This document shows positions 3,781-24,893 of a stretch of 44,623 bases of DNA, in pieces (within the stretch, counting starts at the first letter, position 1; each line of letters starts with the position of its first letter). The stretch lies in the NCBI GenBank assembly GCA_035310145.1, contig DATGEL010000037.1, positions 1-44,623 on the forward strand, given 5' to 3'. The notes beneath the pieces are model-generated. The model saw only the letters and a program-made list of their open reading frames with translations, searched no databases and was not told the origin of the DNA. A program made the position numbers and the translations under genes. This DNA comes from Dehalococcoidia bacterium (GTDB taxonomy: Bacteria > Chloroflexota > Dehalococcoidia > CAUJGQ01).

Positions 3781-4698
3781 ATGAAGATCGGCGTTTCGCT
3801 CACCACGGCGCATCCGCGCGGCATGGCGGCGCGCGAGGCCGGCCGCAACCTGGTCGAGCGGGCACGGGCGATCCGCGCCGCTGGGCTCGACATGCTGCAG
3901 GTCGGCGACCACCACGCCACGCCCTCGTACTACTTCCAGAACGTGCCGGCGCTGGCGCGGCTGGCGGCCGAGACGGGCGAGATGCCGCTGGCGGCGCTCT
4001 TCCTCGCGCCGCTCTGGCATCCCGTGCTGCTGGCGGAGCAGGCCGGCACGCTGGCCGCGCTGAGCGAGGGACCGCTGACGATCATCCTCGCCGCGGGCGA
4101 CGGCGAAGAGCAGTTCGCCGCCTTCGGCGTGCCGCTGCGGCAGCGGCCCAGCCGGCTGGAAGAGGACTTGGCGATCGTGCGGCGGCTGCTCGCCGGCGAG
4201 CGCGTGAGCCTGAATGGCCGCTACCATACGCTGCAAGACGTGGCGGTCAACCCCGTGCCGCCCGAAGCGACGCCGATCTGGATCGGCGCCTCCGGTCGGC
4301 CGGCGCTGGAGCGGGCGGGGGCACTGGCCGACGGCTGGCTGGCCGCGCCCGGCGCCACGGGCGAGGAGCTGACCACCCAGGCGGACATCTACCGCCAGGC
4401 CGCGGCCAACGCCGGCAGACGGCCCGAGCTGATCATCCGCCGCGACGTGTTCGTGGGCGAAAGCGACGCCGACGCAGAGCAGGTCGTGGCGCCGGAGCTG
4501 GCGAAGGGCTACCGCGGCATGCGGCGTGAGGCGCTCTGCATCGGCGGGCCGCAGACCGTGGCCGACGAGTTCCGCTACCTGGCCTCGCTGGGCTTCACGC
4601 AGGTGCTGGTGCGCCATATCTCGCCGGAGCAGGAGCAGGTGCTGGCCTCCTACCACCGGCTCGGCGCCGAGGTGTTGCCACGCGTGCGCGCGTCGTAG
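3781..4698 (+). CDS. LLM-class (luciferase-like) flavin/F420-dependent oxidoreductase
   Basis: Luciferase-like monooxygenase family protein of 305 residues, a TIM-barrel oxidoreductase using FMN or coenzyme F420. Visible signatures are the N-terminal strand MKIGVSLTT, QVGDHH near residue 42, the PLWHPVLLAEQAGTLAALSEG segment (bacterial luciferase pattern), RLEEDLAIVRRLL, the TPIWIGASG strand near residue 160 and ALADGW. Start ATG 3781 follows GGGGTGAGG. F420-dependent members are abundant in Actinobacteria and Chloroflexota, so F420 is plausible, but the cofactor cannot be read from the sequence. Substrate unknown. Confidence 0.88.
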   Translation: MKIGVSLTTAHPRGMAAREAGRNLVERARAIRAAGLDMLQVGDHHATPSYYFQNVPALARLAAETGEMPLAALFLAPLWHPVLLAEQAGTLAALSEGPLTIILAAGDGEEQFAAFGVPLRQRPSRLEEDLAIVRRLLAGERVSLNGRYHTLQDVAVNPVPPEATPIWIGASGRPALERAGALADGWLAAPGATGEELTTQADIYRQAAANAGRRPELIIRRDVFVGESDADAEQVVAPELAKGYRGMRREALCIGGPQTVADEFRYLASLGFTQVLVRHISPEQEQVLASYHRLGAEVLPRVRAS

Positions 4699-15739: not shown

Positions 15740-17143
15740 ATGAACGCCGCCGTCTCCAGCGCCGCGCCGGCAGCGCCGGCCGCCTTCGCCGTGCAGCAGC
15801 TCGGCGTCATGGATCGGCAGCGGCTGCGCGACTACCAGCTCAACCTCGACTTCTACGCCGGGCGGCAGTGGCCCGTGCAGCGGCGCAACCTGCGCCAGCG
15901 CCGGCTCACCTTCAACTACGCTCGCACGTTGGTCGACAAGGCCGCCAGCTTCCTGCTGGCCGGCGCCGGCTTCGCCGTGGACGCGGAATCGCCGGAGGAT
16001 GCGCCGCGGGCGGCGCGCCGCGAGCGCGTGCTGCGCGACATCTACGAACAGAACGACCTGCAGGCGCTCGATTTCGACAGCGAGATCGACTGCGCCGTGC
16101 TGGGCGACGGCTGCTTCAAGGTCGTCTGGGACCCGGAGCAGCGGCGCGTGCGCGTCACCGCGCCGGACGTGACGGGCGTCTACGTCTGGCTCTACCCGGA
16201 CGATCACCAGCGCTTCTGGCGGCTGGCGCACCGCTATACGGTGGACCCGCTCGCCATCCGCCAGCAGGAGCAGTATTACCCGCAGATCTTGCAGACGAAC
16301 CAGCGCAACCCGACGATCACCGAGGTCTGGACGGACGAGAGCTGGGAGATCTGGCACGACGGCACGCTGATCGAGCGGCGCGGCAACCCGTACGGCTTCA
16401 TCCCCTACGTGGTCTATCCCAACCTGCGCCGGCCGAAGCAGTTCTGGGGTGAAAGCGACCTGGCCGCGATCCGGGAGCCCTGCGTGGAGCTGAACCGGGC
16501 GCTGACACAGCTTTCGGCGATCCTCGAAGTCTCCGGCAACCCGATCACCATCCTTGAAGGGATCACCGACTCGAAGGACATCGCCGTGGAGCCGGGCGCG
16601 ATCTGGGAGATGCCGCCGGGCACGAAGGCCTATCTGCTCTCGCTGGTGGAGCACGGCGGCATCCGTATCCACCTGGACTACATCGATCTGCTCTACCGCA
16701 CGCTGCACGACCTGGGCGAATCGCCGCGCGCGGCCTTCGGCGGCCACGATGAGAGCGGCGCCCGCTCCGGCGTGGCGCTGGCGATCGAGCTGGACCCGCT
16801 GATCAAGCGCGCGCAGCGCAAGCGGCTGATCCGCGCCGCGGCGTTCCGGCAGCGCAACAGCATGGCGCTGCGGCTGTGGGAGCAGTTCACGGGCGAGGCG
16901 ATGGCGCCGTACCGCTCGCGCATTACCTGGGGGCCGCTGCTGCCCACGGACCGCGCCCGCGACATTCTGGACGAGGTGGCGCTGGTGAACGCCGGGATCC
17001 ACTCCCGCGCCCGCGCCGCGGCCAACCTGGGCGACGCCGACCACGGCACGGACTTCGCCGCCTGGCTGGGCGAGAACCAGCGCATCCAGGCCGAAGGCGG
17101 GCCGGCCGAGGCGGCGGTGGCGGAGCGGATCGCCGTCGGGTAG
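15740..17143 (+). CDS. phage portal protein (SPP1 gp6-like)
   Basis: 467 residues, the ring protein through which DNA enters and leaves the capsid. Recognisable features of the Gp6-type portal family are the N-terminal RDYQLNLDFYAGRQW segment, the FNYARTLVDKAASFLLAG helix, DCAVLGDGCFKVVWD, the VYVWLYPDDHQ stretch, RGNPYGFIPYVVYPN with FWGESDLAAI, and the stem/crown helix GARSGVALAIELDPLIKRAQRKR. Length is typical. ATG 15740 follows CGGAGG. It is the first gene of the LexA-controlled virion operon, where one would normally expect TerL immediately upstream; TerL is instead 6 kb away on the other strand. Confidence 0.92.
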   Translation: MNAAVSSAAPAAPAAFAVQQLGVMDRQRLRDYQLNLDFYAGRQWPVQRRNLRQRRLTFNYARTLVDKAASFLLAGAGFAVDAESPEDAPRAARRERVLRDIYEQNDLQALDFDSEIDCAVLGDGCFKVVWDPEQRRVRVTAPDVTGVYVWLYPDDHQRFWRLAHRYTVDPLAIRQQEQYYPQILQTNQRNPTITEVWTDESWEIWHDGTLIERRGNPYGFIPYVVYPNLRRPKQFWGESDLAAIREPCVELNRALTQLSAILEVSGNPITILEGITDSKDIAVEPGAIWEMPPGTKAYLLSLVEHGGIRIHLDYIDLLYRTLHDLGESPRAAFGGHDESGARSGVALAIELDPLIKRAQRKRLIRAAAFRQRNSMALRLWEQFTGEAMAPYRSRITWGPLLPTDRARDILDEVALVNAGIHSRARAAANLGDADHGTDFAAWLGENQRIQAEGGPAEAAVAERIAVG

Positions 17144-17190
17144 GTGACAGGGAACAGGTTACTGGTGACAGGTGACAGGAAGTGCCGGCG
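17144..17190. repeat. GTGACAG repeat after the portal gene
   Basis: Run of GGTGACAGGGAACAGGTTACTGGTGACAGG-type units starting at the portal stop codon. The complementary run CTGTCACCTGTCACCGGTGACC lies at 17657-17683, on the other side of the inverted four-helix-bundle gene. Together they bracket that gene. Confidence 0.7.
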
Positions 17191-17228
17191 CCAGGCGACG
17201 ACCATCAACTCCCCGAGCGGTCGGTATC

Positions 17229-17621
17229 TCAGCGCCTGAGCAGGCGGTTGCGCAGTACGGTGAGCATCTTGCTGACTTCGGTGAGCAGCGCCAGAGCCGG
17301 TTCGGCGTCATCCTGCCGCACATAGTTTCGGCGGATGGCGAGCATGACGAAGGTTTCGGTCTCCATCAGCGACCCGCATGCGATGGCGAGGAAGTTTCCG
17401 TAATCCCTGGCCGTTGCTCGCACGCTGCCCTCGGCGATGTTTGCTGGAACGGAAGCTGCCGCTCGTGTGATTTGCGCAGTCAGGCGGTACATCTCGGCGT
17501 TGGGGAATCGATCCGCCAGTTCGTAAACCAGAACCGCCAGATCCATCGCCTTCTGCCACACCACCAGATCACGATGGGAGCGAATCGGAGCTCGCGGCAG
17601 GGCCTGCGGGAGATCATCCAT
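17229..17621 (-). CDS. four-helix-bundle (S23/IVS-type) protein inserted antisense in the virion operon
   Basis: 130 residues from ATG 17621, behind GAGGAGG. Matches the 23S rRNA-intervening-sequence/four-helix-bundle family: SHRDLVVWQKAMDLAVLVYELADRFP near the N-terminus, LTAQITRAAASVPANIAEGS in the middle and DYGNFLAIACGSLMETE after it. The family includes the Avd accessory protein of diversity-generating retroelements, but most members are of unknown function. It is the only minus-strand gene inside the virion operon and is bracketed by complementary repeat runs at 17144-17190 and 17657-17683, which suggests a later insertion (a moron). No reverse transcriptase is present. Confidence 0.88.
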   Translation of the reverse strand: MDDLPQALPRAPIRSHRDLVVWQKAMDLAVLVYELADRFPNAEMYRLTAQITRAAASVPANIAEGSVRATARDYGNFLAIACGSLMETETFVMLAIRRNYVRQDDAEPALALLTEVSKMLTVLRNRLLRR

Positions 17622-17656
17622 ACGCGGCCTCCTCGGACGTACGGTACTCAGTCTAC

Positions 17657-17683
17657 TGTCACCTGTCACCGGTGACCTGTCAC
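17657..17683. repeat. TGTCACC repeat before the scaffold-like gene
   Basis: CTGTCACCTGTCACCGGTGACC-type run, complementary to 17144-17190, ending shortly before the ribosome binding site of the next plus-strand gene. Confidence 0.65.
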
Positions 17684-17706
17684 CTCGATGTGAAAGGAGC
17701 ATGCAC

Positions 17707-18258
17707 ATGTCCCCACCAATCGGCTTCTCGCCGCCAGAGTACGGTTTGATCGACGATGATCCACTGCTGTTCAGGGAGCGGTATCGCGCCTTTCTTGAGG
17801 CGTTTGCTGCACAACATGGCGCCGGCGACGCGGAACGTGTGGCAGCCGAGCTGCAGGCGGCGCTGCAGTCGCTGGATACGGTGCGGCAGCAGGCACAGGA
17901 GGCGGAGCAACTGGCGCAGCAGCGGCAGGAGGCGTTGGAGGCGCTGAGCACGCAGCACGGCATCGCCGTGGCCGCCTACCGCCAGGCCGCGCTGAACGGC
18001 GATCCATCGCTGCCGCCGGCGCTGGTGCAGGGCCAGACGATCGGCGAGGTCGACGCGGCGCTGGAGAAGGCCCGCGCCGTGGTCGAGTACGTGCGCGAAA
18101 AGGTGCTGAGCGCGGGCGGCGCCGGCCCGCCGGGCCAGACCACGCGGGCGCCCGACGCGCCGCCGCGGGTGCCTGCCGGCGCCCCCGGCCGCACGCTGCC
18201 CGACCTCTCCGGCATGACCGCCCGGGAGAAGCTGGTCTTCGGCACGAGTTTTCGATGA
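17707..18258 (+). CDS. scaffolding-like protein
   Basis: 183 residues. ATG 17707 is chosen because it is seven bases after AAAGGAG; the ATG at 17701 is only one base away from that site. The centre (residues about 40-90) is a long Gln/Glu/Ala coiled coil (VAAELQAALQSLDTVRQQA), followed by a second helix (VDAALEKARAVVEYVREKV), a Pro-rich stretch and a basic C-terminus (MTAREKLVFGTSFR). Position between portal and major capsid protein, acidic coiled coil and basic tail fit capsid scaffolding proteins. The sequence alone does not identify the family. Confidence 0.65.
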   Translation: MSPPIGFSPPEYGLIDDDPLLFRERYRAFLEAFAAQHGAGDAERVAAELQAALQSLDTVRQQAQEAEQLAQQRQEALEALSTQHGIAVAAYRQAALNGDPSLPPALVQGQTIGEVDAALEKARAVVEYVREKVLSAGGAGPPGQTTRAPDAPPRVPAGAPGRTLPDLSGMTAREKLVFGTSFR

Positions 18259-18361
18259 CAGGTTCCAGATCACAGGTCACCGGGCGGGGTGCGGGCCGAA
18301 CGCCCTCGCCATCCTCGGGCCGGCTGTCACCCGTCACCAGTAACCGGTCACCTCGCGACTG
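18259..18361. repeat. repeat-bearing spacer after the scaffold-like gene
   Basis: ACAGGTTCCAGATCACAGGTCACC after the stop and CTGTCACCCGTCACCAGTAA near 18326-18345 form the usual complementary arms, here more degenerate than in neighbouring gaps. Confidence 0.55.
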
Positions 18362-18423
18362 GCCGCCATCGGCACGCACGTGCCGATCTTGAGCCGCCAT
18401 CGGCACGCACGTGCCGATCTTGA
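18362..18423. repeat. perfect 31-bp tandem duplication with internal inverted repeat
   Basis: 18362-18392 and 18393-18423 are identical. Each unit contains ATCGGCACG-CA-CGTGCCGAT, a 9-bp stem with a 2-nt spacer, so two identical hairpins stand in tandem immediately before the AAAGGAG of the next gene. Two adjacent binding sites or translational control elements are possible. The identity of the copies suggests a recent duplication. Confidence 0.85.
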
Positions 18424-18437
18424 AAGGAGCGATCCCC

Positions 18438-18878
18438 ATGCCCACGCTGCAGCAGAGCGTGATCGCGATTCCCTTCGCCATGGCCGACCCGGCCGCGAAC
18501 GCCGGCGGCGGCGGTGTGCCCACGCCCTTCGGCCTGCCCGACACGGCCGATGTCGCCGCCATCCTCATGCCGTTCACCGGCACGATCGTCGGCATCGCCG
18601 TCACCGGCTCGCCGGCGGCGGGCGACTCCGTGACCGTGATCCCGCAGATCTGTATCACCAAGGCGGGCGGCGGCGCTGCCAACTGCGCCTCGCTCTCAGT
18701 ACAGATCACCTCGGCCGCGCCGGCGGCCAGCGCCACCGTCTCCAAGGACCAGGCCGACTGCCAGTTCACGGCGGGCCAGTTCATCGGCGTCTTCTACCAA
18801 ACGGCCACGGGCGGCGCCTACACCGTGCACGACGTGCACGTCACGCTGTTCATCTCCACTGGGCGCGAAGACCTCTAA
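18438..18878 (+). CDS. virion protein, candidate capsid decoration protein
   Basis: 146 residues from ATG 18438 (GAAAGGAG upstream). Gly/Ala/Thr-rich and predicted beta-stranded (GTIVGIAVTGSPAAGDSVTV, FIGVFYQTATGGAYTVHDVHVTLFI), with three cysteines. No family is recognised. Its place between scaffold and major capsid protein and its small beta-rich nature suggest a head decoration or stabilisation protein. A second beta-rich small protein (20052-20459) follows the capsid gene and ends in a similar I-F-hydrophobic strand, so the two may be distant paralogues. Confidence 0.65.
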   Translation: MPTLQQSVIAIPFAMADPAANAGGGGVPTPFGLPDTADVAAILMPFTGTIVGIAVTGSPAAGDSVTVIPQICITKAGGGAANCASLSVQITSAAPAASATVSKDQADCQFTAGQFIGVFYQTATGGAYTVHDVHVTLFISTGREDL

Positions 18879-18884
18879 CGAGGG

Positions 18885-18986
18885 TGAAGGGGAAAGGGTG
18901 AAGGGTGATCGGGAAACCACCCCCTCTACCCTGTCCCCTGTCCCCTGTCACCTGTCACCGGTAACCAGCCACCTGTCACCTGGCGA
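18885..18986. repeat. repeat-bearing spacer before the major capsid gene
   Basis: GGGTGAAGGGGAAAGGGTGAAGGG after the stop, then CCCTGTCCCCTGTCCCCTG and TGTCACCTGTCACCGGTAACC. The purine arm faces the pyrimidine arm, giving imperfect stems, and the spacer ends three bases before the ribosome binding site (ACTGAAAGGAG). Confidence 0.7.
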
Positions 18987-19002
18987 CTGAAAGGAGCCAA
19001 CG

Positions 19003-19893
19003 ATGGCGCTGACGCTGACGGAGGGCGCGAAGCTCTCGAACAACGTGGTCTTGCAGGGCGTGGTGGAAACGATCGTCAAGGAGTCGCCCGTCTTGCAGGC
19101 GCTGCCGTTCATCGACATCACCGGCAACGCGCTCGTCTACAACCAGGAGAACGCGCTTGCCACGGCCGGCTTCTTCAATGTCGGCGATACCTGGGTCGAA
19201 TCGACGCCGACCTTCACGCAACAGACGGCCACGCTCAGCATCCTCGGCGGCGATGCGGACGTCGACAACTACCTGCGCCAGACGCGCAGCAACGTGCAGG
19301 ACATCGAGGCCGTGGTGCTGGAGCTGAAGGCGAAGGCCGTGCGCCAGACCTGGGAGCAGCAGTTCATCACCGGCACGACGGCGGCCGCCGGCTTCTCCGG
19401 GCTGGACACGCTGATCGGCGCCGCGCCCGCCTCACAGACGATCGCGGCCGGCACGAACGGCGCCACGCTCAGCCTGCCGCTGATCGACCAGCTGATCGAT
19501 GCGGTGAAGCCGGGCATGCCGGACATGCTCCTGATGTCGCGCCGATCGCGCCGCCAGCTCACGCAGCTCGTGCGCGCGGCCGGGGCGTTCCTGGAGGGGA
19601 ACGTCAACGCCTTCGGCATGTGGCAGGAGCGCTACAACGGCATCCCCATCGGTGTGTCGGATTACATCTCCGAGGCGCAGACGCAGGGCACCTCGAGTGT
19701 CGCCACCACGATCTACGCGCTGCAGTTCGGCGAGGGCCGGCTCTGCGGCCTGCAGGGCGGCGGCGGCATGCAGGTGGACCGCGTGGGCGAGCTGGAAACC
19801 AAGGACGCCGTGCGCTGGCGCATCAAGTGGTACGTCTCGCTCGCCATGTTCGGCACCGTCTGCGCCGCCCGCCTGATCGGCGTCACGCCGTAA
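19003..19893 (+). CDS. major capsid protein (HK97-fold type)
   Basis: 296 residues, size and position right for a phage major capsid protein. The N-terminus LTEGAKLSNNVVLQGVVETIVKESP, the E-loop-like NALVYNQENALATAGFFNVGDTWVEST, and the core segment LIDAVKPGMPDMLLMSRRSRRQLTQLVRA followed by GIPIGVSDYI (A-domain strand) fit HK97-like coat proteins without the long N-terminal delta domain. The C-terminal VRWRIKWYVSLAMFGTVCAARLIGV is the typical final strand pair. It starts at ATG 19003 after GAAAGGAG. A separate protease gene of the usual capsid-maturation type (U9/S49/S78) is not visible. Confidence 0.88.
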   Translation: MALTLTEGAKLSNNVVLQGVVETIVKESPVLQALPFIDITGNALVYNQENALATAGFFNVGDTWVESTPTFTQQTATLSILGGDADVDNYLRQTRSNVQDIEAVVLELKAKAVRQTWEQQFITGTTAAAGFSGLDTLIGAAPASQTIAAGTNGATLSLPLIDQLIDAVKPGMPDMLLMSRRSRRQLTQLVRAAGAFLEGNVNAFGMWQERYNGIPIGVSDYISEAQTQGTSSVATTIYALQFGEGRLCGLQGGGGMQVDRVGELETKDAVRWRIKWYVSLAMFGTVCAARLIGVTP

Positions 19894-19899
19894 CGGGCC

Positions 19900-20030
19900 A
19901 GATGACAAGTAACAGGTAACAGGTTACAGGGGACAGGTTACAGGGGACAGGGGACAGGGGACGCAGTCCTCGAAACCCGGAGTCTCACTCGTACCCACTG
20001 TCACCTGTCACCAGTAACCGCTCACCGCTC
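19900..20030. repeat. longest repeat spacer, after the major capsid gene
   Basis: AAGTAACAGGTAACAGGTTAC, then repeated AGGGGACAGGGGACAGGGG units (19902-19960), followed by CACTGTCACCTGTCACCAG (19997-20016). It directly follows the most highly expressed gene expected in the operon. The mixture of GTAACAG and GGGGACA heptads shows several sub-families side by side. Confidence 0.75.
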
Positions 20031-20051
20031 GCGACCGAAGGGAGCGTTCCG

Positions 20052-20459
20052 ATGCCCCAGGAGATCGACGGCGCCACCGGCAACCTGATCGTGCCGCAGA
20101 GCGCGCGGGCGGACCCGGCCGGCATGCTGGCCTACCGCGGCGGCATCTCCGCGGCGGACGGCACGACCAAACCGGCGGCAGGCAGCGCGTTGTTCGCGCA
20201 GAACCCCGGCTACCGCCAGAAGTGCCGCGTCTTCGTCACCAGCACGGGTTCGCCCACGAGCTGCACACTGCGGCCCTACGTGCGCTCCGGCGGCACGAGC
20301 GGCCAGGTGGGCACGGGCGCGGCGCAGACACTCGCCGGCGCGCCCAACTTCGACACCTACTTCGACGTGCAGACCGACGGCGACGACCTCGCCGTGCTGG
20401 TGGAGACGCTCGCCGGCGGCACGTCGCCCACCGTCAGCATCTTCCTCAGCTGGCGATGA
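20052..20459 (+). CDS. small beta-rich virion protein
   Basis: 135 residues from ATG 20052, preceded by the GACCGAAGGGAGCG translation-start module shared with two other genes of the operon. Contains IDGATGNLIVPQSARADP, Gly/Thr-rich strands (RVFVTSTGSPTSCTLRPYV) and a C-terminal TVSIFLSWR strand. No family recognised. Its position just after the major capsid protein suggests a head-associated protein such as a second decoration or head-completion protein. Confidence 0.62.
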   Translation: MPQEIDGATGNLIVPQSARADPAGMLAYRGGISAADGTTKPAAGSALFAQNPGYRQKCRVFVTSTGSPTSCTLRPYVRSGGTSGQVGTGAAQTLAGAPNFDTYFDVQTDGDDLAVLVETLAGGTSPTVSIFLSWR

Positions 20460-20551
20460 GGGAGGTGACAGGTGACCGGGCACCGGCGACAGGGAGGGTT
20501 GGTGCACGGACCACCCTGTTCCCTGTCACCGGTAACCTGTCACCTCAAGCG
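20460..20551. repeat. repeat spacer between small virion protein and connector
   Basis: GAGGTGACAGGTGACCGGGC after the stop and GTTCCCTGTCACCGGTAACC and CTGTCACCTCAAG before the next ribosome binding site. The arms pair in inverted orientation. Confidence 0.7.
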
Positions 20552-20568
20552 ACCGAAGGGAGCGTCCC

Positions 20569-21228
20569 GTGGCCAACGGCTTCAACGACTACGTGCCCGC
20601 GGTGCGCCAGGACCTGGACGACCCGAACCCGCCGGCGGCGATCTGGTCCGACACGGACCTCCAGCGGCACGTCAGCCACGCGGTCCACGAGTACAGCTAC
20701 TGGAGTCCGCTGGAGCAACTGCTCACCAGCTACGGCCTCACGGCCGGCAGCCGCCAGATCACGCTCGGCGCAACCGACCTCGCCAGCCTGGTGAGCATCC
20801 GCGCGGTGGAATATCCCACGGGGCAGTGGCCGCCGGCCTACGTGCAGTTCCAGCTCTGGGGCAGCGCGCTCTCGCTCTGGCTGGACGGGGCGCCGGCCGC
20901 CAGCGATCCGCTGAACGTGAACATCTATGCGCTGTTCAGCCACACGGTGAGCCAGTCCAGCACGACCGTGCCGCCGCGCGACGACGAGGCGATCATCGCC
21001 GGCGCCGTGGCCTTCGCCGCGCTGGAGTACGCGGCGAAGACCGCCGGGCAGGTGAACACGGCCGGGCCGAACGCCTGGCTGCGCTACCGCGACCTGGCGC
21101 AGGACAAGGCGGCGGAGTTCCGCGGCTATCTGCAGATCGTGCGCGCCCGCGTCACGCCGCAGCGGGCCTATGCCCCCTCCGAGCCGCGCCAAAGCCGCTT
21201 CACCGTCGAGGCGCCCTGGCGGGGGTAG
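20569..21228 (+). CDS. head-tail connector/adaptor-like protein
   Basis: 219 residues. GTG start at 20569 after GAAGGGAG. The N-terminus (YVPAVRQDLDDPNPPAAIWSD then LQRHVSHAVHEYSYW) follows the pattern of head-completion/connector proteins, which begin with a helix pair containing D-x-W/x-D and a string of tyrosines. An internal helix (AIIAGAVAFAALEYAAKTAG) and a final WLRYRDLAQDKAAEFRGYLQ helix follow. Position (after capsid, before distal proteins) supports a role in joining the portal to tail parts. Family assignment is by pattern only. Confidence 0.68.
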   Translation: MANGFNDYVPAVRQDLDDPNPPAAIWSDTDLQRHVSHAVHEYSYWSPLEQLLTSYGLTAGSRQITLGATDLASLVSIRAVEYPTGQWPPAYVQFQLWGSALSLWLDGAPAASDPLNVNIYALFSHTVSQSSTTVPPRDDEAIIAGAVAFAALEYAAKTAGQVNTAGPNAWLRYRDLAQDKAAEFRGYLQIVRARVTPQRAYAPSEPRQSRFTVEAPWRG

Positions 21229-21276
21229 GGAACAGGGAACAGGGAATTAAGGAATAGCGGGCGAAGGAGTCGGCTC

Positions 21277-21567
21277 ATGCCGCCGATCGAGGTCATTCGT
21301 CATCTCGCGGAGACGGCCCGCGCGCGGGCGCTCGTGGCGCTGCATGCGGTCGAGCACTCACCGGAGGCCGCCGCGCTGGAGGAGTTCGCGCGCCAGCAGG
21401 CGCTGGTCTTCGCCGGCCTGCTGCTGGAAGAGCTGCGCGGGCGACTGATCGCGGCGCCGCCCGTCTCGCTGCCGGCGTTGCTGGCGCTGATCGAGGAGAC
21501 GCTTGCAGGCGCGGCGGCGCGTTACGAGGCGCTGATCGGCGCGGCCGCCCCCACGGCTCAACTCTGA
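21277..21567 (+). CDS. small helical protein of the virion operon
   Basis: 96 residues, nearly all helical and Ala/Leu/Glu-rich (ALVALHAVEHSPEAAALEEFARQ, LLALIEETLAGAAARYEALIG). GGGAACAGGGAACAGGGAATT repeat units (21229-21248) separate it from the connector gene. ATG 21277 follows AAGGAG. No family is recognised. In phage operons this position often holds head-tail joining or tail-completion proteins. Confidence 0.6.
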   Translation: MPPIEVIRHLAETARARALVALHAVEHSPEAAALEEFARQQALVFAGLLLEELRGRLIAAPPVSLPALLALIEETLAGAAARYEALIGAAAPTAQL

Positions 21568-21645
21568 TCGGCGGCCTAGCCGCGCGACGAGCGGGGCAAG
21601 CGGTGGCGGCGCGTTGGCCGCCGCGAGCGGCCGGAGGTGGTGCAG

Positions 21646-21993
21646 ATGCAGACGAACGATTCCGCGCTGAACGGGGAGCGACGCGATCGGGCAGCGGCAG
21701 AGCTGCTGCGCCTGCCGCCCGCGGCGGAGGCGGCGTTTCCGCCTCTCTGGACGTTGGTTCTGACCCGGCTGGGCAGCGGCGCGACCCTGCCCGCGAGCGA
21801 GATCGAGCCGTGGGCGCGGGCGGTGAGCCTGGCGGTGTCGCTGGTGCGGCAGATCGATGCGGGCCTGTGCCACTGCCGTCGCGTCGACAGCGGCCTGATC
21901 GGCGGGCTCGTCGCGGGCGCGATCGCGCCGGCCGTGCTCGCCTGGCTGGATCAGGAGCCCGCAGCCGAGCCGCACACGGAGGCGGCGTCATGA
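21646..21993 (+). CDS. small helical protein, translationally coupled to the metalloprotease
   Basis: 115 residues from ATG 21646, eight bases after GGAGG; the upstream GTG overlaps that ribosome binding site and is rejected. Helical, with LLRLPPAAEAAFPPLWTLVLTRL, a Cys-x-Cys (LCHCRRVDSG) and a hydrophobic C-terminal segment (GGLVAGAIAPAVLAWL). It ends in an ATGA overlap with the metalloprotease gene, so the two are probably translated together and may be partners. Function unknown. Confidence 0.6.
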   Translation: MQTNDSALNGERRDRAAAELLRLPPAAEAAFPPLWTLVLTRLGSGATLPASEIEPWARAVSLAVSLVRQIDAGLCHCRRVDSGLIGGLVAGAIAPAVLAWLDQEPAAEPHTEAAS

Positions 21994-22712
21994 GCGTCTT
22001 CGCCGGAAACACAACCGCCCTGCCCGCGTCCAGCAATGGCGCCCCGGAACAGGCCGCCACGCCGCATGCCCGCCCTTTGTGCCCGCTGGTCTTCGTGCCA
22101 AGCGACTGCGCCGGCTGGAACGCCGAGTACGTGCCGGCGCTCGATGCGGCGCTGGCCGAGGCGCTGAATTGGTGGCAGACACGGCTCGGCGTGCAGCCCT
22201 TCGACCCGGAGCCGGCGCTGGCGATCGGCGGCCGGCAGCCCCGCGCCGCCTACGCCTGCGACACGCAGGAACGCATCCGCGCCGAGCTGGCGCGCTACTT
22301 CCCCGACCTTGCCGCCCTGTCCGAGCAGGCCGGCACCTCTGTTCCCTGTCCCTCGCTCTCTGTTCCCTTGTACGTCGTCTACGCGCTGCTTTCGGACCTG
22401 CCGTACCGCTGCGCCGGCAACGTGATCGGCACCAGCGCCGCGGCCGCCGGCGGGCCGCCGGTGCTGGTGGTGCAGTCGTCCGGCTCGCTGGACGCCTTCG
22501 CACTGGGGCAGAACCCGCTGGACCCGGTTTCGGGCAGCCGCGCGGCGCAGATCGGGGCGCTGGCGCACGAGTTGGGCCACGCGCTCGGCCTGCCGCACCC
22601 GGCCGACCCGGCGGTGCAGGCCGTCTCGGTGATGTGGAGCTGGTGGCTCTTTCCCCGCGTCGCCCTCAGCCCGCCGGAAACCGCTCAGGCCCTCGCCTGC
22701 CTCTCAGGGTAG
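21990..22712 (+). CDS. metzincin-like zinc metalloprotease encoded in the virion operon
   Basis: 240 residues. The zinc site HELGHALGLPH (residues 193-203) is the full metzincin signature HExxHxxGxxH, and SVMW (Met215) can serve as the Met-turn, as in matrixin-like M10 peptidases. The preceding region contains YVVYALLSDLPYRCAGNVIG and a glycine-rich strand. There is no signal peptide, so delivery would be through the particle or lysis. About residues 112-125 (TSVPCPSLSVPL) are encoded by the CTGTTCCCTGTCCC repeat type, read in frame. Candidate roles are virion maturation protease, wall/envelope-penetrating enzyme, or toxic cargo. The motif is certain, the role is not. Confidence 0.85.
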   Translation: MSVFAGNTTALPASSNGAPEQAATPHARPLCPLVFVPSDCAGWNAEYVPALDAALAEALNWWQTRLGVQPFDPEPALAIGGRQPRAAYACDTQERIRAELARYFPDLAALSEQAGTSVPCPSLSVPLYVVYALLSDLPYRCAGNVIGTSAAAAGGPPVLVVQSSGSLDAFALGQNPLDPVSGSRAAQIGALAHELGHALGLPHPADPAVQAVSVMWSWWLFPRVALSPPETAQALACLSG

Positions 22713-22787
22713 TGGGTGGAGGGTTGGTGCTCCTCCCCTCAACCCTTCCCGCTTTACCCTTCACCCGGCGACCGAAGGGAGCCCCTC

Positions 22788-24839
22788 ATGCGCACCCTCA
22801 CCAGCACGCTCACGGCCGCGCAGCAGGCGAGCGGCGCCGTGCCCGCCGTGCGCCTGACGCGGCGGCGCGCCTCCGCCGGCGAAGATCGCTACACGCTGAG
22901 CTTCCTCGCCGGCTCCGGCTCGCTGAGCGACCCGTACGCCGTGACCGCCTCGGGCGGTGTGCTGCGCATGTGGGCGATCCACGCCGGCAGCGTGCGCGTG
23001 GACTACTACCAGGGCAGCCCACTCGTCTTTCAAAGCGGCGGCACGCGCTGGTCGACCACCGACACGCTGATCGCCGCGGCGCAGCAGCAGAACACGCCGG
23101 CCAACGTCGCCGTGGTCACGGCCGCACCCGGCGCGAGCACGCTCTCGCTGCGCTTCTCCGGCAGCGGCGATGCCGGCTTCGGCGCGGCGGAAACGCTCAA
23201 CCTGCCCAACGGCGTGGCCTACCAGGCGCAGGCGGTCGCCTGCTGCTTCGCGCCGGACGGCCGTGTCTTCGTGGCCGTGCAGGGCACGCAGTACATCACC
23301 GTGTTCGTGCGCGCCACGAATGCGACCTACACCTCGGCCTCCAATCCTGCCGACGGGCATTACTCGGCCATGGGCATCGGCTGCTGCTACACGGTCTCCA
23401 GCGGCGCGGGAGACCTCGCGATCTACGCTTCCGCCGGCTACACGGCGGGCACCTGGTCGGAGCTGGTAACGCTGCTGTTCGGCGACGGCGCGTTGCAGGG
23501 GGCCGGCAGCTTCTCCGTACATCAGACGGTACTGATCACGAAGCCGTATGTGACGGGGCCGGGCACGGCGCCGGGCACGATCCTGAGCGCCGGCGGCCTC
23601 TGCCTGGCCGACACCTTCCGCGCCACGTTCTACGAAGACTTCCAGAACCCGCAGATGAGCCTGGCGACGAAGCGCAACTTCGCCCAGAGCGTGCTGAAGC
23701 CGGCGAACGTGAAGGCCGGCTATGCCCGCGACCCGCAGGCGCTGCCGGTGGACGCCGCCGCGGTGTTGAAGCCGGCGTGGGACGCGCAGAACGGCATCCT
23801 CTTCTACGCGAACCCGGCCAACATCTATTACGGCATGGCGCCGCTGACGCAGGATCTCTCCGCCCGCGTGCTGCGCTGCACGCGCACGGAGCGCGAGAAC
23901 GGCGCCGGCATCGACGTGTTGCTGGACAACAGCGACCTCTCGCTTGCGGCGCTGGCGCAGAGCGCGGACAGCATCGGCGACCGCCTGAGCCTGGACTTCG
24001 GCTACGTGACGAGCGCCGGCGCCGAGTACAGCGTCTCCATGCCGCTGTGGCTGTCGCGCGTCACCGCCTCGGGCGCGGGCGGCACGCGCTACGCGGAGAT
24101 CACGGCGCACGACGGCTGGCAGGTGCTGGCGGCGTGGCGGCCGCGGCGGCTCTACTCCTGGCTGCCGGGCGAGAGCACGATCGCACAGATCCTGCAGTGG
24201 ATCCTGGCGCGGGCCGGACTCGATTTCACGCCGCCCGCCTCGCCCTCGGTGCTCTTGCAGAGCAGTCCCGCCTTCGCCGTTCACCCGGCAAGCAGCGGCG
24301 CCCAGGCCGTGCACGAGCTGCTGGACCAAATCCCCGAAGTGCTGCTCTTCACGGCGGCCGGCGCCGTGCTGCGCCTGCCGCAGAGCACCGACCCGCCCGT
24401 CTACACGTACGCGCCCGGCGGCCACGCGGTGCTGACGGCGCGCCGCTCCTGCTACGCGCAGGGGCTGAACCACGTCCTGCTCTACGGCAAGAACACGGGC
24501 ACGGCCACCACGCCCACGTTGATCGGCGAGGCGCTGGACGCGAGCGACGCGCAGCGGATCGCGGACTACCCGTTTGCGCTGCACGATATGCAGGTCTCGA
24601 CGGCAAACGCGGCGGCGCGGGCGGCCGTGCCGCTGCGCAAGGCGCAGCTGATCACCGACGCGGGAGAGATCGCCGCGGCGCCGAACGTGGGGCTGGAGCC
24701 GTGGGACGCGATCGGGATCACGGAGGGCTTCAGCGGTATGAGCGGCGCGACGCTGCGCGTACGCGAGCTGCGCACGCTGTTCGACACGCTGCGCGAGGGC
24801 GGCGTCTACACGCAGTCGGTCGGGCTGATGAACCCGTAA
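22788..24839 (+). CDS. large virion protein, tail hub/spike-like
   Basis: 683 residues, the largest gene of the operon. ATG 22788 follows the GACCGAAGGGAGC module. The N-terminal 300 residues are beta-rich and repetitive, with Ser/Gly/Thr-rich strands (GSGDAGFGAAETLNLPNGV, GRVFVAVQGTQYI). The middle has a hub-like part (RVLRCTRTERENGAGIDVLLD, YAEITAHDGWQVLAAW, STIAQILQWILARAGLDF) resembling tail hub or late-control-D type proteins with domain swaps. The C-terminus (LRKAQLITDAGEIAAAPNVGLEPWDAIGI) fits the usual oligomer-stabilising end of such proteins. No tape measure precedes it. Likely receptor-contacting or baseplate-like. Confidence 0.7.
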   Translation: MRTLTSTLTAAQQASGAVPAVRLTRRRASAGEDRYTLSFLAGSGSLSDPYAVTASGGVLRMWAIHAGSVRVDYYQGSPLVFQSGGTRWSTTDTLIAAAQQQNTPANVAVVTAAPGASTLSLRFSGSGDAGFGAAETLNLPNGVAYQAQAVACCFAPDGRVFVAVQGTQYITVFVRATNATYTSASNPADGHYSAMGIGCCYTVSSGAGDLAIYASAGYTAGTWSELVTLLFGDGALQGAGSFSVHQTVLITKPYVTGPGTAPGTILSAGGLCLADTFRATFYEDFQNPQMSLATKRNFAQSVLKPANVKAGYARDPQALPVDAAAVLKPAWDAQNGILFYANPANIYYGMAPLTQDLSARVLRCTRTERENGAGIDVLLDNSDLSLAALAQSADSIGDRLSLDFGYVTSAGAEYSVSMPLWLSRVTASGAGGTRYAEITAHDGWQVLAAWRPRRLYSWLPGESTIAQILQWILARAGLDFTPPASPSVLLQSSPAFAVHPASSGAQAVHELLDQIPEVLLFTAAGAVLRLPQSTDPPVYTYAPGGHAVLTARRSCYAQGLNHVLLYGKNTGTATTPTLIGEALDASDAQRIADYPFALHDMQVSTANAAARAAVPLRKAQLITDAGEIAAAPNVGLEPWDAIGITEGFSGMSGATLRVRELRTLFDTLREGGVYTQSVGLMNP

Positions 24840-24893
24840 GTGACAGGTGACAGGTGACAGTGGGACCGGCCCAGACCATCTGTCACCTCTCGC
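24838..24893. repeat. repeat spacer after the hub/spike-like gene
   Basis: AAGTGACAGGTGACAGGTG directly at the stop codon and ATCTGTCACCTCTCGCC before the next ribosome binding site. The arms are complementary over about 10 bases. Confidence 0.65.

Follow-up and report, generated by a model that had tools for sequence, protein, structure and literature searches.

Intergenic repeats with a heptameric unit have been on record since about 1990. Those of Xanthomonas (GGGAATC) and Nostoc (GGGGA(C/T)T) lie mostly between genes, are described as quadruplex-forming and had no explained role in 2015, and in Xanthomonas they also occur as inverted heptad pairs (70 cases in Xcc and 75 in Xac; Rehm et al., 2015, PMC4692102), while the TAACTGA direct repeats of Beggiatoaceae are intergenic heptamer arrays that are patchily distributed across phyla (PMC4679880). 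The larger intervening sequences (IVS) of 23S rRNA are of another kind: an open reading frame (ORF) of the S23 family sits in an inverted-repeat stem that is regarded as selfish and is excised by RNase III, and for the 428-nt IVS of Coxiella burnetii a patchy distribution suggests horizontal spread (PMC4990558). S23 or "four-helix bundle" proteins are annotated in many bacteria, with a function that is not settled, and their family, PF05635 (23S_rRNA_IVP), is homologous to the four-helix-bundle protein Avd of diversity-generating retroelements (PMC10053308). Here, we analysed a 44,623-bp stretch (the window; contig C37, DATGEL010000037.1) of the 5.32-Mb, 148-contig genome of a Dehalococcoidia bacterium (GCA_035310145.1), in which complementary heptad arrays occupy most gaps of a viral gene cluster. 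With a probability of roughly three in four, most of these gap repeats represent an S23/IVP stem-loop element in its gene-less form, inserted at gene junctions.

The preliminary description of the window had called these genes a virion operon, a fair label given the portal (15740-17143; PHROG portal, 2e-21) and major head (19003-19893; 4e-63) genes identified in the region, and had reported heptad runs in most gaps. Direct reading and repeat finding bear this out: of the nine gaps that measure 30 bp or more between 17143 and 24909, seven have heptad arrays. It overlooked what lies between the heptad arms of the first gap: that gap is 563 bp long because it houses a 130-aa gene on the minus strand (17229-17621), antisense to the operon. 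The G-rich left arm (GGTGACAGGGAACAGGTTACTGGTGACAGGTGACAGG, 17142-17179, plus strand) is a period-7 array that starts at the portal stop codon, and the C-rich right arm (CTGTCACCTGTCACCGGTGACCTGTCACCT, 17656-17685, plus strand) matches it with a score of 19. The gene belongs to PF05635 (Pfam E=1.1e-34), and its nearest solved relative is 2GSC (E=3e-25), the PF05635-like XCC0516 of Xanthomonas campestris; its presence shifts the reading of the gap from part of an operon to an inserted element. Four PF05635 genes, two of them broken, are present in the genome, and all four lie between inverted heptad arms, the heptads of which (GGTGACA, GGGTTTA, GGGAATA and GGAAATA) differ among copies and agree within each copy. 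The complete form of the element measures about 450-540 bp and consists of a G-rich left arm, one S23/IVP gene and, as right arm, the left one inverted. Such an element resembles the 23S rRNA IVS in its protein family, its single ORF between terminal inverted repeats, its size and its patchiness (PMC4990558), but it lies between protein genes (in the window, the portal and downstream virion genes) rather than in 23S rRNA, and its arms are heptad arrays.

The same architecture recurs in many phyla. We picked 80 PF05635 loci by protein similarity alone from a collection of bacterial and archaeal genomes, and they are spread over more than a dozen phyla, including Cyanobacteria, Planctomycetota, Pseudomonadota, Bacillota, Bacteroidota, Acidobacteriota, Verrucomicrobiota, several candidate phyla and Methanophagales. 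Of 77 upstream flanks, 36 contained arrays with a lag of 7, as did 28 of 78 flanks on the downstream side, versus 2.7% of 2019 control windows; lags other than 7 and 14 yielded at most five arrays each, and 14 was as expected. The arms of a locus match each other (median score 16, against 8 for swapped arms and 9 for displaced windows of the same loci), and a locus's own flank is the best-matching partner in 44 of 75 cases. Inverted heptad arms were likewise present in further PF05635-bearing genomes and at most of 29 PF05635 loci in viral contigs, several of which carry variant heptads in matching order across both arms (e.g., GGCTGTCGGCATTCGGCTATCGGCGTTCGGCC). This ordered matching points to arms that were copied from one another rather than produced independently by slippage, and it makes copying between arms, for which the preliminary description had proposed template switching, plausible. 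The heptad turns over while both arms continue to match. Across elements, the more similar the proteins, the more similar the heptads (Mantel r 0.416, permutation maximum 0.142), a signal that derives mostly from closely related proteins. Two orthologous loci on Nostoc plasmids are set apart by precisely one heptad, a plausible sign of the slippage that had also been proposed.

Several PF05635 loci have peculiarities of their own. S23-family elements on Nostoc plasmids (L229 and L230) have GGGAACA arms and stand beside a TraM-domain gene, in surroundings that look like a conjugation operon. A Calothrix plasmid pair considered as identical copies at different sites proved to be a single locus shared by two plasmids. 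The arms of the Mesorhizobium sangaii element (L160, about 3950-4330 and downstream) have a period of 8 (CCCTACTG) and not 7, and its downstream array enters masked bases. At L117 (1916-2404), in a genome (G166) that consists of one contig and belongs to the same phylum as the window, long higher-order repeats of about 91 bp, made of heptads, adjoin a PF05635 gene.

One orthologous junction displays the element as present, absent and gene-less. Copies in Pseudaminobacter and in Bosea both lie between nuoC and nuoD, and among 139 genomes drawn from the family and from the genus Mesorhizobium, this junction holds the gene with arms in 35, a gap of at most 12 bp in 66 (in some of which nuoC and nuoD overlap), a small gap in 18 and another insert in 20; a single genome of the last group (L272) has arms (GGCAGTC) without a gene. 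The heptads at this junction include TGAATGG, GTAGTGA, GCGAATA, GGCAGTC and GTCGGTC, and the arms match: because many of these elements share a heptad, which weakens a strict best-partner test (7 of 22), we relied on the permutation sum, in which own arms score 408 and the permutation maximum is 302. Occupied and empty species can be 95-97% identical in nuoD (up to 96.9% between neighbours), and in one such pair the right flank is exactly kept, the empty junction reading CAGTAG GGCGACCC ATG and the occupied one CAGTGA ATGG...TATTCGCCAA GGGCGACCC ATG. The state of the junction is scattered on a poorly resolved nuoD tree (16 changes versus a shuffled mean of 15.4). About 20 of the 139 junctions hold other small ORFs (L265, L281, L301, L304-L306, L316-L319, L323, L327-L331, L365 and others), so that nuoC-nuoD may be a general insertion spot; several of these ORFs begin with a CxCG motif resembling GFA-family proteins. 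In many Rhizobiales elements (L266, L270, L290, L398 and similar ones), a mini-hairpin such as GCCGAAGGC separates the right arm from the nuoD start codon, and similar sequence is kept in some gene-less nuoC-nuoD gaps (L309, L318).

Most hairpins in the Dehalococcoidia genome are gene-less, with loops of 0-120 bp, and gene-bearing and gene-less copies have heptads in common. For three of the four PF05635 elements, the heptad ranks among the commonest gene-less classes (61, 46 and 26 arrays, in a sample enriched for the GTGACAG class), while those of foreign elements are for the most part scarce or missing in the gene-less arrays (median 1). The common form in this genome is a hairpin alone, from which the gene was lost or in which it was never present.

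That the heptads are a genome trait found mostly outside genes, as the preliminary description held, is borne out by their distribution: GTGACAGGTGACAG occurs 50 times in the genome and its reversed-pattern control not once, and the wider pattern GGNRACAGGNRACAGG occurs 124 times as opposed to a single control match. Densities come from a sample of 1.1 Mb, analysed with a home-made gene caller, in which 679 kb had been chosen regardless of repeats; in this unbiased part, there are 205 lag-7 arrays per Mb of intergenic and 24.5 per Mb of coding sequence, and lags of 4, 5, 8, 10, 11 and 13 give 28-84 and 3.5-19 per Mb, respectively, the intergenic enrichment being at lag 7 and its multiple 14. 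Is this, then, a set of intercistronic insulators or mRNA-stability stems, held in place by selection on the operon? The arms are placed between stop and start, and in tandem gaps the G-rich array is by the upstream stop in 26 of 27 cases and the C-rich array by the downstream start in 27 of 33, as had been described. They are also complementary within a gap beyond permuted controls, with own hairpin arms reaching a summed match score of 648 and the highest of 5000 arm-swapping permutations 566. The expectation that each gap forms a stem held for only some of them: five gaps fold better as RNA than their shuffles (z of -4.86, -2.69, -2.63, -2.10 and -1.99), whereas four lie at z of -0.2 to -1.1. 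However, the G-rich left and C-rich right arrangement is the same in tandem (23/29 and 30/31), convergent (10/12 and 9/9) and divergent gaps (10/12 and 13/13), and since a palindrome reads alike on both strands, the left/right rule is uninformative on transcription. Nor are tandem gaps favoured: at unbiased loci, arrays occur in 9 of 309 tandem (2.9%), 7 of 71 convergent (9.9%) and 5 of 103 divergent gaps (4.9%), which, together with the shared geometry, takes away the principal argument for an insulator that serves operons. An intrinsic-terminator reading was rejected as well, because GC-rich stems followed by a T-run numbered three versus 3.0 expected from shuffles, with none at the heptad arms. 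With the nuoC-nuoD junction empty in other species, sometimes to the point of gene overlap, we consider a role as insulators quite unlikely; the insulator-like stems in operon gaps can be explained without selection on the host operon.

It is also unlikely that the heptads are simple repeats, i.e., slippage-born satellites, possibly forming G-quadruplexes, that are unrelated to the S23/IVP gene and into which this gene merely lands. Many arrays lack the gene, orthologues can differ by a single heptad, and the G-rich heptamers of Xanthomonas and Nostoc share with ours the heptamer unit, the enrichment between genes, the inverted pairs, the variation in unit number and the placement of the G-rich strand by the stop and the C-rich strand by the start (explained here by palindrome geometry), all with no gene link (PMC4692102). 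But here there are several heptad types in one genome and a link to PF05635: inverted arms flank this gene across distant phyla though the heptad differs each time, and the heptad type follows protein relatedness. The main unit, GGTGACA, has only GG and no three-G tract, and related elements have AT-rich units without G-tracts (AGTTTTT, AGATATT), so quadruplex formation is not the common property. The TAACTGA arrays, similar in being intergenic heptamers with a patchy distribution over phyla, differ in that one heptamer is repeated directly, not inverted, and immediately before start codons (PMC4679880). Finally, palindromic, intergenic sequences in many copies per genome and in short and long forms are reminiscent of repetitive extragenic palindromes (REP), bacterial interspersed mosaic elements (BIME) or miniature inverted-repeat transposable elements (MITE) mobilised by a REP-associated tyrosine transposase (RAYT) or another known transposase. 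This explanation is already disfavoured and has very little probability in our view: Y1_Tnp (PF01797) was not found in this genome, the arms are tandem arrays, and there is no conserved terminal sequence because the heptad differs between copies.

Against these alternatives, the gap repeats look like members of a widespread and little-noticed group of selfish elements rather than insulators made for this operon. These elements occupy gene junctions, typically from the upstream stop codon to just short of the next ribosome-binding site, where an insertion does the least harm. They may move, or have moved, either by selfish spread or through repeated gain and loss by recombination. Their heptads may expand by replication slippage, and the likeness of their arms may be upheld by fold-back template switching or by selection on the RNA stem. 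The S23/IVP protein presumably acts on the hairpin, the stem of which, as RNA, could be a target of RNase III as in the 23S rRNA IVS, and the direction of change would be from gene-bearing to gene-less copies.

Several observations weigh against an origin of the gap repeats from an S23/IVP element. Gene-less copies far outnumber gene-bearing ones in this genome, and remnants of the gene were found neither in the loops of its gene-less hairpins nor, for PF05635, in the loop of the gene-less nuoC-nuoD copy. In about 40% of the 75 PF05635 loci, the arm match is no higher than the 99th percentile of the scores for swapped arms. The proteins of the nuoC-nuoD elements are mutually related and mostly cluster in a first protein tree, used loosely on account of a few proteins in the wrong frame (L267, L270, L313); the pattern at this junction may be due in part to an old insertion with many losses, or to recombination of the operon. 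Neither a clean target-site duplication nor an exact element boundary was established, and near-identical genomes did not reveal one copy at two different sites, which leaves movement an inference. Diversity-generating retroelements pair an Avd-like protein with a reverse transcriptase, whereas the search of this genome for that enzyme (PF00078) was negative.

Heptads and their inverted pairs were already known from Xanthomonas (Rehm et al., 2015), and the link to PF05635 may be new: we did not find it in the literature searched, which is weak evidence of novelty with most subscription papers outside the search. This link gives context to both partners, with the gene as cargo, and perhaps agent, of a hairpin with co-evolving arms; it renders the origin of the repeats testable and suggests the rRNA intervening sequences as one case of a broader element. 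More tentatively, and with somewhat less than even odds, S23/IVP could be the signature gene of very widespread prokaryotic stem-loop mobile elements with self-made heptad-array ends, its protein maintaining or moving the hairpin, and the heptameric repeats of Xanthomonas and Nostoc could be gene-less derivatives. A search for the GGGAATC pattern in the class of a gammaproteobacterium returned none of 303 genomes, a set evidently without Xanthomonas.

Within the virion operon, the gaps with heptad arrays are, besides the gene-containing one at 17143/17707, those at 18258/18438, 18878/19003, 19893/20052, 20459/20569, 21228/21277 and 24839/24909, and their arrays mostly form an inverted pair. 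Gene-less hairpins lie at 18255-18352 (degenerate left arm GATGACAGGTTCCAGATCACAGGTCACC, below the array threshold and recognised by eye; right arm 18324-18352), 18886-18984 (left arm of the AAGGGTG type, 18886-18909; right arm 18921-18984; fold z -1.99), 19902-20030 (arms 19902-19966 and 19995-20030; z -2.63), 20463-20545 (arms 20463-20486 and 20525-20545; z -4.86) and 24836-24888 (left arm of three GTGACAG units, short right arm CTGTCACC; z -2.69). Gap 21228/21277 has the G-rich arm only (GTAGGGAACAGGGAACAGGGAATT, 21225-21249, plus strand), with no right arm detected by repeat finding; gap 22712/22788 has a weaker pair under the array threshold (GGGTGGA/CCCTTCACCC; left arm GTGGGTGGAGGGTTGG; 22713-22766) that does not fold better than shuffles (z -1.07), and repeat finding and reading revealed no heptad array in gap 21567/21646. 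The family copy that had been noted beyond the viral region, at 2690-2850, is real by repeat finding and arm match (left arm 2690-2736, right arm 2791-2850), and its left arm overruns the end of ORF 1457-2722. A perfect 31-bp tandem duplication with an inner palindrome (18362-18423; GCCGCCATCGGCACGCACGTGCCGATCTTGA) lies in the stretch from the right arm of the hairpin at 18255-18352 to ORF 18438. A C-rich heptad-like run (CTGTTCCCTGTCCCTCGCTCTCTGTTCCC) at 22340-22372, within the metallopeptidase-like ORF 21990-22712, leaves the reading frame open and appears to be an in-gene copy.

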